Assembly: GCF_000744935.1 (NCBI RefSeq)
Contig: NZ_JQMW01000011.1
Coordinates: 1,240,001 to 1,304,000 of the forward strand
DNA length: 64,000 nucleotides
Reading direction: 5' to 3'
From: Clostridium sp. KNHs214
Lineage (GTDB): Bacteria; Bacillota; Clostridia; Clostridiales; Clostridiaceae
Shown here: positions 47,373 to 52,081 of the stretch, piece after piece
How the letters are laid out: every line of letters begins with the position of its first letter
How positions within the stretch are numbered: the stretch's first letter is position 1
Notes under the pieces: model-generated
What the model saw: only the letters and a program-made list of their open reading frames with translations
Database searches by the model: none
What the model was told of the DNA's origin: nothing
Translations under genes and position numbers: made by a program

Positions 47373-47404
47373 AAATTAAAATATAGGGATAAAGGGTGGT
47401 AAAT

Positions 47405-48769
47405 ATGGATATTTTAAAATCTTTAGTTGTAGATTTGCCAGAGGATGTTAAGAAATATGTAATGTACGGGGATTTTACTAGAGCAAATAAGTTAATAGAT
47501 ATATACGAAAAAAGAAATATATCCGATTTGTTAAAGCAAAGATTAAATTACCAAAGGCACGTTATGAATATTATAAAAGAAGAGTATATATATTCTTCTG
47601 AAGAAGCTCTAAAAATGTGCTGTGAAAAAATAAAAGATTTTTCTATGGAAGAGCTAGAAAACTTAAAAGATGAGAGATTTGCTGATTGGGTATATATAGA
47701 TGGCAAGGTTATGTTTCACAAAAGATTTTTAAATACAATTTTAGGCGTTTGTCCTGAAATGGCTAATAGAACATTAAAGAAGGACAAAAAAGACCAAAAT
47801 GATGAAAAAAAGCAACAGTTACTAGACAAAGTGGTAAATGAAATAATAGAAAAGGGACATAAAAGTTATTTTATACATATCAAAACAGGTATAAAGCTCA
47901 ATAAAGAGGCTGTAAGAAAAGGTGAAAAAATAAGAGTTCATTTGCCTATTCCTAAGCCTTGTAAACAGATAAAAAATATTAATATAATATCCACTAATCC
48001 AAATGGTGGTTTTATAGCTCCGGAAGATTGTCAACAAAGAACAGTATATTTTGAAAAAAACGTTCAAGGGGAAGAAGAATTTACTGTAGAATACTCCTAT
48101 GAAAATTCTATGGAATACAATAATTTAGATGCTTCTAGAGTTTTTAAAAATCAGCCAGATTTTTATACAGGTGAATTATCTCCTCATATAGTTTTTACAC
48201 CTTTTTTAAAGGATTTAGCAAAGAAGATAGTTGGAGAAGAGGTAAATCCTTTAATAAAAGCTAGGAAAATATATGATTATATAACTACCAATGTTCAATA
48301 TTCTTATGTAAGACCTTATGCAGGCATTATTAATATACCAGAATATGCTGCTTATAATTTAAAAGGCGATTGTGGAGTGCAGGCACTTTTATTTATAACT
48401 TTATGTAGAATATCCGGAATTCCTGCAAGATGGCAATCAGGCCTTTATGTAAATCCACATTTTATTGGCTGTCATGATTGGGCTCAATTTTACATACAAC
48501 CTTATGGATGGATTTTTGGGGATTTGTCCTTTGGAGGCAGTTCCCATAGGAAAGGAAACACAAAAAGGTGGAATTTCTATTTCGGAAATTTAGATCCTTT
48601 CAGAATGGTTGCCAATTCAGATTTTCAAGGTGAATTTGTGCCAAGTAAGAATTTTTTTAGAATAGATCCTTATGACAATCAAGTGGGAGAAGCGGAATAT
48701 TTGGATAGGGGACTTTCTTCTAAAGACTTTAGTAGCATAATGGAAATAATAGATGTACATGAAATATAA
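47405..48769 (+). CDS. Transglutaminase-like cysteine peptidase-fold protein
   Basis: About 454 residues. The core has the papain-like triad: Cys in 'LKGDCGVQALLFITLCRISGIPARW' (~330), His in 'GCHDWAQFYI' (~360) and Asp in 'FGDLSFGG' (~380). The first ~160 residues are helical and charged, and a beta domain lies at ~165-240. No signal peptide, so cytoplasmic. Bacterial members are often peptidases of unknown substrate. ATG at 47405 follows AAAGGGTGG. Confidence 0.85.
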   Translation: MDILKSLVVDLPEDVKKYVMYGDFTRANKLIDIYEKRNISDLLKQRLNYQRHVMNIIKEEYIYSSEEALKMCCEKIKDFSMEELENLKDERFADWVYIDGKVMFHKRFLNTILGVCPEMANRTLKKDKKDQNDEKKQQLLDKVVNEIIEKGHKSYFIHIKTGIKLNKEAVRKGEKIRVHLPIPKPCKQIKNINIISTNPNGGFIAPEDCQQRTVYFEKNVQGEEEFTVEYSYENSMEYNNLDASRVFKNQPDFYTGELSPHIVFTPFLKDLAKKIVGEEVNPLIKARKIYDYITTNVQYSYVRPYAGIINIPEYAAYNLKGDCGVQALLFITLCRISGIPARWQSGLYVNPHFIGCHDWAQFYIQPYGWIFGDLSFGGSSHRKGNTKRWNFYFGNLDPFRMVANSDFQGEFVPSKNFFRIDPYDNQVGEAEYLDRGLSSKDFSSIMEIIDVHEI

Positions 48770-48771
48770 CA

Positions 48772-49107
48772 ATATTGTGAAGCAAGTGCCGTAAGAAAAA
48801 TCACACTTTAAGTCCGTGAAACAATTGTAATTTGGGACTAATCACAATACGCTAAGAACTTCTACATGTTTGCAGATTTCAATTCCCTAAAACCTTAACT
48901 CGCTCCTTGCGTCCCTCAAACAAGAAGGTTTCTTAACGGGAATTGAAATCTGCAAACATAAGAAGTTCTAAAGCTAGTTCCATAGTCCCAAATTCCAATT
49001 CTTTCACTCCCTTAAAGTGTGATTTTTCGGTTTATGCATAAGCTATCTATGGGGGAATACAGCTAACTAAAGGATGATTTTCCTCCACTACGTTATGGAA
49101 AATCTTT
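48772..49107 (+). repeat. Palindromic unit L of the kilobase element
   Basis: Self-complementary: AAAAATCACACTTTAAG (48796-48812) with 49011-49027, 17/17; AATTGTAATTTGGGACT (48823-48839) with 48984-49000, 16/17; TGTTTGCAGATTTCAATTCC (within 48854-48887) with 48938-48969, about 21 perfect pairs plus flanks; AAACCTT/AAGGTTT at the tip. Then GATTTTTCGGTTTATGC and a second hairpin GATTTTCC/GGAAAATC (49076-49104). Confidence 0.9.
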
Positions 49108-49448
49108 TATTGGCGGCAGCCAGCCTAAATACGTAGGCATGATTAGGATTTATATAAATCAATGCCTCACGGCGAAATATATTAGGTCTTATTTAGTACT
49201 TTATTTTGACAAGCAATTATTTGTTAGTCAGAAGTTTAACACTTAAAAGTTTTTTTGGCGTGAGCCTGTTGATTTATAATGAATGATCGGCATATAGGTT
49301 AAGAAACATAAATATGTATTATAACAATAAATTCCAACATCTAGAAACTATAACCTAGTACCTAGTATTAAAAAACATTTGATGACTAGGGACTAAACGA
49401 AAGGCTCCGCCTAAAAAAATATTATGAGCGCTTTCCCATTTATAAATT

Positions 49449-49783
49449 AAAGATTTTCAGTAGCGCAGCGGAGGAAAATCATCCTTTAGGAGGCCTTCTC
49501 CTCTAGAAGCAATGTACGCATGAACCGAAAAATCTGTCTTTAAGGTAACAATAAATATATTTTTTTACACTATTGAGCTAGCTTTAGAAATTCTTTGCTT
49601 TCAAATTTCAATACCCGTTAAGAAGCTTTCATGTTTGAGCGCCGTTAGAAGCGAGTTTGAAAGCTTTAGGGTATTGAAATTTGAAAACATTAGAATTTAT
49701 TGGCGTATTGCGAACAGTCTTAAAAAATATATTTATTGTGGACTTAAAGACAGATTTTTCTTATGACATTTGCTTCACAATAT
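49449..49783 (-). repeat. Palindromic unit R of the kilobase element
   Basis: The same architecture on the minus strand: AAAAATCTGTCTTTAAG (49528-49544) with 49743-49759, 17/17. Compared with unit L the middle CACAC has become CTGTC, with matching changes on the other arm. The second and third stems also differ in sequence but keep pairing. Loop sequence is conserved with L: CCCTAAA, ACTCGCT, CTCAAACA and TTCTTAACGGG occur in the same order. Confidence 0.9.
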
Positions 49784-49786
49784 ATT

Positions 49787-51898
49787 CTAAGTGAATAATT
49801 TATAGATTCCCGTAGTGAGCATACACACTACTATAGCAATTCCCGTAGGAATTAAAGCAGAAGCCCAGGTCCACTTTGAGCTGCCAGTTTCCTTTTTGAT
49901 GGTCATTAAAGTGGTAGCACATGGCCAGTGTAAAAGACTAAATAGCATCACATTTATAGCCGTAAGATAGTTCCAGCCGTTGTTTAATAGAATTTGTCTT
50001 AAAGATTCGATACTTTCAAAATCTATCATGGAACCAGTAGAAAGATAACACATAAGAAGTATAGGCAATACTATTTCATTAGCAGGGAGACCTAATATAA
50101 AGGCCATAAGTATAAATCCATCTAGCCCCATAAGTTTTGCAAAGGGGTCAAAGAAGGAAGCCAAATGGTTTATAATACTTAAGTCACCTATATATATATT
50201 TCCTAGTATCCACGTAAATGCTCCAGCAGGAGCAGCAATTAAAATAGCTCTCATTAAAACAAATATAGTTCTGTCTATTAAGGATGTATATAATATTCTT
50301 CCTACTTGAGGTTTTCTGTAAGGAGGAAGTTCAAGTGTAAAACTGGAGGGAACTCCTTTTAATAAGGTTTTTGAAAGAATATAGGATACAAGCAAAGTAA
50401 CCATAACACCAACTATAACCATGAGAGTTATAAAAATAGCAGGAATTATCTTTCCAGAGGATTTCATGGTTGCGGCGAAGAAAACAGAAGAAATAGCTAT
50501 TAATGTTGGAAATCTTCCATTGCATGGCACAAAGTTATTAGTTATTATAGCTACTAATCTTTCACGTGGAGACTCTATAATTCTACAGCCTATAATTCCA
50601 GCAGCGTTGCAACCTAACCCCATGCACATAGTTAAGCATTGCTTACCATGAGCGCATGCTTTTTTAAATAGATGATCTAGATTAAAGGCCACCCTTGGTA
50701 AATAGCCCAAGTCTTCAAGTAATGTAAATAAAGGGAAAAATATAGCCATAGGGGGAAGCATTACAGACACTACCCAAGCTAATGTCCTGTAGAGGCCTAA
50801 TACTAGAACACCATGGAGCCATACAGGAGCATTAATTTTAGTAAACCACTTTGTTAGCATATGTTCAAAGCCAAAAAGAGCTTTAGCAAGAAGTTGTGAT
50901 GGCACATTGGCGCCTTCAATGGTAATCCAAAAAATCAATGCTAAAACTAATAGCATAATTGGAATTCCAAATTTCTTGGAAGTTATGATATCATCGATCT
51001 TTGCATCTCTAGAGAATTTCTTATGGTCCTGCTTTACATATTTATTTTTTATATATTCAGCTGATTTATAGTTTTCTTCTGTTATATATTCTCTAATTTT
51101 TTCCTTGTCTATATTTGAAATGATTTTTTTAGATTCTATAGTAAGCTTTTCTAAAGAATTCTTATCTATATATTGGCTCATGGAGTTAAAAAAGCTTTTA
51201 TCTCCATCTATAAGTCTGAGTGATAACCATCTGGAATTGATAAAGGGTACATTTTCTTGGCATATAGGCTCTAAGGTTTCCACTAAATTTTCTATAGAAT
51301 CCACGTAGCTAATCTTTTTTTTATTAGAGTTTATACTTTTTTCTGGTAAATTGTATAAAGTCTCTTTTAAATCTTCTATACCTACATTATTTCTAGCTGC
51401 AGTTAGAACTACAGGTATTCCCAGTTCATTTTCTATTTCATTAGCATCTATTTTTATGTTTTTCTTTTTTGCCTCGTCTATTAAATTTATGCACAAAACT
51501 ACATTATCTGTCAGCTCCATCACCTGAAATACTAAATTTAAGTTTCTTTCAAGGCAGGTAGCATCCACAACTACAACTACTGCATCAGGTTCTCCAAAGC
51601 ATATAAAATCTCTAGCCACTGTTTCTTCAACAGAGGACGCAAATAATGAGTAGGTGCCAGGTAAATCCACAAGTATAAACTCTTTTTCCTTATATGAAAA
51701 TTCTCCTCTGGCATTGGTCACGGTCTTTCCTGGCCAGTTACCTGTATGTTGATGGAGTCCTGTTAAAGAGTTAAAAACAGTGCTTTTTCCTGTGTTTGGG
51801 TTGCCAGCTAGGGCAATTATATATTTGTTTTTCTCTCTTTCAACTTTAAACATATCTTTCATAGAATTTTTACCGGTAGATTGAAAAGTAAGACCCAT
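49787..51898 (-). CDS. feoB: Ferrous iron transporter FeoB
   Basis: About 703 residues. N-terminal G domain with G1 'AGNPNTGKS' (~31-39), G3 'DLPGTYS' and G4 'NLID' motifs, then helical spacer and about eight membrane segments with two Gate-like repeats ('GCNAAGIIGCRII', 'LGLPANEIVLPI'). Imports Fe2+ across the cytoplasmic membrane. The start is taken at ATG 51898, with AAGGAG upstream; an open extension to 51982 has none. Its stop codon abuts the kilobase inverted repeat. Confidence 0.95.
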   Translation of the reverse strand: MGLTFQSTGKNSMKDMFKVEREKNKYIIALAGNPNTGKSTVFNSLTGLHQHTGNWPGKTVTNARGEFSYKEKEFILVDLPGTYSLFASSVEETVARDFICFGEPDAVVVVVDATCLERNLNLVFQVMELTDNVVLCINLIDEAKKKNIKIDANEIENELGIPVVLTAARNNVGIEDLKETLYNLPEKSINSNKKKISYVDSIENLVETLEPICQENVPFINSRWLSLRLIDGDKSFFNSMSQYIDKNSLEKLTIESKKIISNIDKEKIREYITEENYKSAEYIKNKYVKQDHKKFSRDAKIDDIITSKKFGIPIMLLVLALIFWITIEGANVPSQLLAKALFGFEHMLTKWFTKINAPVWLHGVLVLGLYRTLAWVVSVMLPPMAIFFPLFTLLEDLGYLPRVAFNLDHLFKKACAHGKQCLTMCMGLGCNAAGIIGCRIIESPRERLVAIITNNFVPCNGRFPTLIAISSVFFAATMKSSGKIIPAIFITLMVIVGVMVTLLVSYILSKTLLKGVPSSFTLELPPYRKPQVGRILYTSLIDRTIFVLMRAILIAAPAGAFTWILGNIYIGDLSIINHLASFFDPFAKLMGLDGFILMAFILGLPANEIVLPILLMCYLSTGSMIDFESIESLRQILLNNGWNYLTAINVMLFSLLHWPCATTLMTIKKETGSSKWTWASALIPTGIAIVVCMLTTGIYKLFT

Positions 51899-52081
51899 AT
51901 AAAAACTCCTTTTTACATTAATAATAAATAGAAGATTTTTTATTGCGAAAATCAACTTAGTATTAATTTTAAAAAATAGCATTGATTTGGTAAAGTCAGC
52001 ATTAATTTAGCAAACACAGTATTGATTTGACAAATTTAGCATATAAATTTTATTTTGTTATAAATCTAAATAATGCTTAAC

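Follow-up and report, generated by a model that had tools for sequence, protein, structure and literature searches.

The window, the whole stretch of 64,000 nucleotides analysed here, contains a 1-kb non-coding element (48772–49783) that occupies the gap, from stop codon to stop codon, between two convergent ORFs (47396–48769 on the + strand and 49787–51982 on the − strand). The FeoB protein encoded downstream is 90% identical to that of Haloimpatiens lingqiaonensis P8956, and on this identity the genome of the window is assigned to a Haloimpatiens species related to H. lingqiaonensis. Three genomes are labelled below: that of the window (G000), a relative taken as H. lingqiaonensis (G001), and a third species of the same genus (G002). 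The features of the locus are as follows.

47396–48769, + strand: upstream convergent gene (ORF), 457 aa, putatively transglutaminase-like from a sequence motif; its G002 ortholog has its C-terminus at almost the same residue.
48767–48790, + strand: left terminus, TAACAATATTGTGAAGCAAGTGCC (sequence, and comparison of the termini of all copies); the upstream gene stops at the TAA of 48767–48769.
48772–49039, + strand: left arm, an L-type unit forming a stepped hairpin of ~265 nt with the base AAAAATC...GATTTTT (repeats, alignment and fold).
49076–49104, + strand: small hairpin module (GATTTTCCTCCACTACGTTATGGAAAATC, then TTTTATT) that by eye resembles a terminator; the terminator scan did not call it.
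49112–49444, no strand: variable interior, differing in length and content from copy to copy (comparison of copies).
49226–49279, + strand: remnant of an IS end, AGTCAGAAGTTTAACACTTAAAAG...GTTGATTTATAA; the same end adjoins an IS4-type transposase gene in G002.
49452–49480, − strand: the small hairpin module again, as a mirror copy on the opposite strand (sequence comparison).
49516–49783, − strand: right arm, an R-type unit with a hairpin of ~265 nt, inverted relative to the left arm and 75% identical to it (repeats, alignment and fold).
49775–49789, − strand: right terminus, TAGAATATATTGTGA; TAG at 49787–49789 is the stop codon of feoB.
49787–51982, − strand: downstream convergent gene (ORF), FeoB-like iron transporter, 731 aa; the C-terminus matches that of the G002 ortholog.

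The element is built of two inverted, near-perfect hairpins of ~265 nt each, or ~340 nt with flank. Its outer inverted repeat pair (48772–48864/49691–49783) is 74% identical and its inner pair (48897–48958/49596–49657) 81% identical; the hairpin of the left unit itself pairs 48795–48840 with 48983–49028 (89%) and that of the right unit 49527–49574 with 49713–49760 (88%). Folding energies were −110.9 kcal/mol for one unit and −94.3 kcal/mol for the other, with z-scores of −15.4 and −13.1 against shuffles. A sequence-only reading of the locus had described two inverted units of ~336 nt, each a long stepped hairpin; the repeats and folds bear this out, except that the near-perfect hairpin covers ~265 nt and the rest is flank. 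The same reading had stated that the element exactly fills the convergent gap, which holds, with the stop codons of both ORFs at its ends, and is its most telling part. It had recognised no known RNA class or transposon, and none was matched: the element has no counterpart among Rfam families, whose sole matches in the window are two tRNAs. The ORF list gives no long ORF inside 48772–49783, and a consensus terminator scan called nothing in the element.

Two points were added to that reading, namely the IS-end remnant in the interior and the multicopy nature of the element. Copies varying in number and location, for which it had proposed a check, do exist: ~37 elements, a few of them partial, were resolved from 170 BLAST matches in the window's genome, and G001 has many as well. 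Complete copies have two inverted arms each. Three arm subtypes (L, R, and S) are distinguished, and nearly every copy pairs one R arm with an L or S arm. Arms of the same type are mostly 92–98% identical across loci (copies of the L type elsewhere mostly 95–98%, of the R type 92–97%), and the two arms within one element ~75%. The interiors harbor nested sequences: a full IS4-type IS in L083, a shortened one in L085, IS1634 remnants in L064 and L067, and, in the window copy, the end of another IS4-type IS, distinct from that of L083 and L085. An autonomous parent inside the long copies was considered and rejected, the IS4-type transposase of L083 and L085 being that of a nested IS that is also found free of units in L113; IS1634 was likewise rejected as parent, its pieces in L064 and L067 interrupting the interior.

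Placement relative to genes was counted for 37 copies, leaving out the window's own, with ORF-based gene calls: 18 lie between convergent genes, 16 between tandem genes (14 "−−" and 2 "++"), and 3 between divergent genes. Every element end facing the 3′ end of a gene was then considered, window copy included. At 43 of these 51 ends the stop codon ends 3–12 nt before the conserved terminal ATTGTGA; the distance is 13–30 nt at five and >30 nt at one, and at the remaining two the reading frame of the gene runs on for a few codons inside the element. Copies in G001 follow the same trend. The element ends read TAAGAATATATTGTGA. Wherever G002 orthologs were readable, the C-termini are native or a few residues from native; therefore, the genes are not truncated, and the element starts where the gene ends. 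Members of the family as a rule abut a stop codon. Inspection by eye showed no target-site duplication around the elements, the flanks being stop codons and the native spacer gone. At the element-free site L168 of G001, and at L165 and L169, where a second repeat is found, hairpins can likewise start at or near a stop codon. This second, shorter repeat (L165:479–720 and L169:304–560) consists of GAATGTTGCGACGCAACATTC followed by tandem units TTGACAATTGACA; it occurs in G001 only, at ~11 sites, and starts at the stop codon of a gene at both sites read.

Copies in G001 lie mostly at sites orthologous to those in G000 (feoB, pepT, and others), and no arms were found in G002. Most of the 17 convergent gene pairs tested by protein are adjacent and convergent in G002, and in the ten G002 pairs that were read the stops are ~20–90 nt apart, mostly with a terminator-like inverted repeat (by eye). 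Inside the copies no locus-specific remnant of an old spacer or native terminator was found; in the window's genome the interval from stop to stop is wholly element. We infer that the element replaced the terminator interval in the lineage leading to G000 and G001; a loss from G002 would be a less parsimonious account. When clustered, arms fall together according to species and subfamily and not according to locus, and arm type, read by hand, agrees at only ~3 of 13 comparable orthologous ends between G000 and G001, so that sites persist and occupants turn over. A few relics of G001-type arms are retained in G000 (L084:3821 and L042:7717). Behind this turnover may lie recurrent insertion, the replacement of entire elements, or ectopic conversion, all of which fit the data alike.

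For covariation, 33 arms from both species (G000 and G001) were aligned over 80 pairs. Pairing is kept in 97.9% of cases, as compared with 83.9% in shuffles and at most 54.5% when the alignment is slid by one column; the slid controls and the effect size put the reality of the hairpin beyond doubt. The sequence-only reading had pointed out a stem contrast (CACAC/GTGTG against CTGTC/GACAG) and conserved tip motifs; both are visible in this alignment, in which the unpaired tips are conserved and the A-tract/T-tract at the hairpin base is invariant. The structure-preserving covariation reported there from two units extends to 33 units from two species, with changes on both sides in 37 of the 80 pairs, a type of count that kinship of the sequences inflates. 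Nearly every double change is of the Watson-Crick type and symmetric between strands. Within subfamilies such changes are few, and most stem changes are single-sided and uncorrected, with G-T and A-C about equally represented (29 and 39 distinct states, respectively). Under selection, an RNA would be expected to accept G-U on its own strand but not A-C; the observed pattern therefore points to constraint on DNA palindromy, or on both strands, rather than on one RNA strand. The earlier proposal of selection for structure, in RNA or in folded single-stranded DNA, thus stands as to preserved pairing and is narrowed to DNA palindromy or both strands, and templated (template-switch) repair of quasi-palindromes could be a second, non-selective source of paired changes. 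Since individual copies mostly drift uncompensated, the constraint seems to act on propagating copies and not on every locus. Together, these features fit a palindrome in DNA that is maintained in master copies as they propagate, rather than an RNA gene of the host.

As to clostridial homologues, also envisaged in that reading, full units were found among 207 Clostridiaceae genomes in G000 and G001 only; beyond these there is one weak partial arm match, in G093. Searches of plasmids, phages, and viral contigs gave no matches to the units. RAYT-like Y1 proteins are present in all three genomes, including the element-free G002, and one of them matches the RAYT model below the model's cut-off. 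No mobiliser was identified. In G001, L192:1163–2095 encodes a RAYT-like Y1 protein with a match to a DnaA-type C-terminal domain; the gene sits between the same two genes that flank element L045:1720–2744 in the window's genome.

Several known systems share features with the element. REP, BIME, and REPIN sequences with their RAYT transposases (PMC3733652, PMC8049555) are likewise multicopy, intergenic, palindromic units in opposite orientation, placed between convergent and tandem genes, and their termini can supply the TAG stop codon of a flanking gene (PMC3733652). However, their units are 20–40 nt long, those of the element being ~265–340 nt, or ~10 times larger; they carry a GTAG or CGTC tag at the unit end, whereas the ends TAAGAATATATTGTGA have none; and they flank a RAYT gene, whereas no units were found beside Y1 genes in the 12 Y1 stretches examined, a set that leaves aside further Y1 genes of IS200-like size. 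The element also differs in not favoring G-T pairs and in having only dozens of copies. It would work like REP/REPIN and is filed as a non-member because of its size, the missing tag, and the lack of a linked transposase. MITEs and other non-autonomous IS derivatives resemble the element in their inverted ends, lack of an own gene, and multiple copies. Unlike these, the element has a full hairpin in each arm and takes the place of the stop-to-stop interval, and no target duplication was seen by eye; no related IS ends were found in the genome, of which IS families other than the IS4 type, whose free copy L113 lacks the units, were partly covered. Intrinsic bidirectional terminators of convergent clostridial genes occupy the same place, and an A-tract and T-tract flank their stem on both strands as in the element, but they measure ~40 nt against ~1 kb, and the element is homologous from locus to locus, with a loop far beyond the size suited to canonical terminators. 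In Firmicutes, stem-loop repeat families such as Clop-1 and Clot-1 are also interspersed and intergenic; they differ in that the clostridial ones tabulated in one survey have 31–93 nt and 19–44 copies (PMC2267715).

The reading towards which we lean takes the element as a copy of a palindromic DNA repeat that is multicopy and non-autonomous, similar to an oversized REP dimer (REPIN/BIME-like). Folded DNA would be the spreading form, only copies able to form the hairpin would propagate, and the element would enter or replace the terminator interval directly behind stop codons. It would be tolerated there because its arms could end transcription of both neighbors and leave a hairpin at the 3′ ends of the mRNAs, a role suggested by the A-tract/T-tract at the arm base on both strands. 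A bolder version, possible but rather unlikely, is a new class of mobile hairpin DNA spreading by exchange of terminator hairpins, in which some machinery would recognise the hairpin interval behind stop codons and swap the stop-to-stop stretch for the kilobase double hairpin, and later for another subfamily, so that sites persist and occupants turn over. Against the REP-like reading stand the Y1 genes of all three genomes, which have no units beside them in the 12 stretches examined, the lack of a target-site duplication visible by eye, and the consensus terminator scan, which called nothing in the element; the shared sites, moreover, could instead stem from old vertical inheritance combined with gene conversion.

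Were the arms functional 3′-UTR or terminator RNAs, under selection at every locus and kept alike through gene conversion, their placement behind genes and between convergent genes, the invariant A-tract/T-tract at the hairpin base, the sites kept in two species, and the strongly preserved pairing would all be expected. We regard this as unlikely, given that G-T is no commoner than A-C where RNA selection should favor G-U, that uncompensated changes accumulate in the copies, that the corresponding gene pairs of G002 manage without the element, and that Rfam gives no match. Covariation might also arise with zero selection for structure if template switching or arm-to-arm conversion perfected the quasi-palindromes. 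The almost exclusively Watson-Crick, strand-symmetric double changes agree with this, as does the L arm of L083, whose reversed match to the reference (85.6%) is near the forward one (88.4%), as arm-to-arm exchange would give; yet correction is not fast, because stem changes within subfamilies are mostly single-sided and uncorrected, and the tips are conserved though unpaired, which leaves this explanation quite improbable.

An ordinary MITE of a DDE insertion sequence present in the genome (IS4 or IS1634 family) would account for the inverted terminal sequences, the multiple copies, and the IS4 or IS1634 genes within some of them. This origin is very improbable: the IS4-type IS is nested in the element and also occurs in the unit-free region L113, the IS1634 remnants break into the interior at a single point, with an overlap of ~6 bp, and target duplications were not seen by eye. 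Host sites structuring the chromosome through gyrase or nucleoid-protein binding, as proposed for BIMEs, would be consistent with the many copies over the chromosome at conserved sites, but the sister species G002 lacks the arms, and we give this proposal hardly any weight.

On the preferred reading of a palindromic DNA repeat, the family bears on several questions. In bacteria, double hairpins of a kilobase would be expected to be unstable, yet dozens persist in this case, and their two arms have almost always diverged. With two species having the element and one lacking it, terminator replacement, palindrome maintenance, and occupant turnover at fixed sites are directly traceable. The copies also form a large natural data set for separating RNA-level from DNA-level covariation, and palindromic repeats mistaken for structured RNAs are a recurring problem.

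Some individual copies are unusual. The L arm at L083:4578–4887 matches the reference at 85.6% reversed and 88.4% forward (BLAST) and its tip reads inverted, which suggests that the hairpin's two sides have exchanged sequence. At L084:3821–6504 the arms enclose ~1.7 kb with ORFs, one of them NUDIX hydrolase-like, which may be captured genes or the space between two half elements. One G001 element (L120:1548–4695) brings together genes that in the window's genome (L060) lie beside two separate elements, as expected from recombination between copies. The small hairpin GATTTTCCTCCGCT..GCT.YGGAAAATC (49076–49104 and 49452–49480 in the window) is present in 18 of the 207 Clostridiaceae genomes; in one of them, G165, the module occurs >100 times, and in the cases read it often lies beside short tandem repeats.
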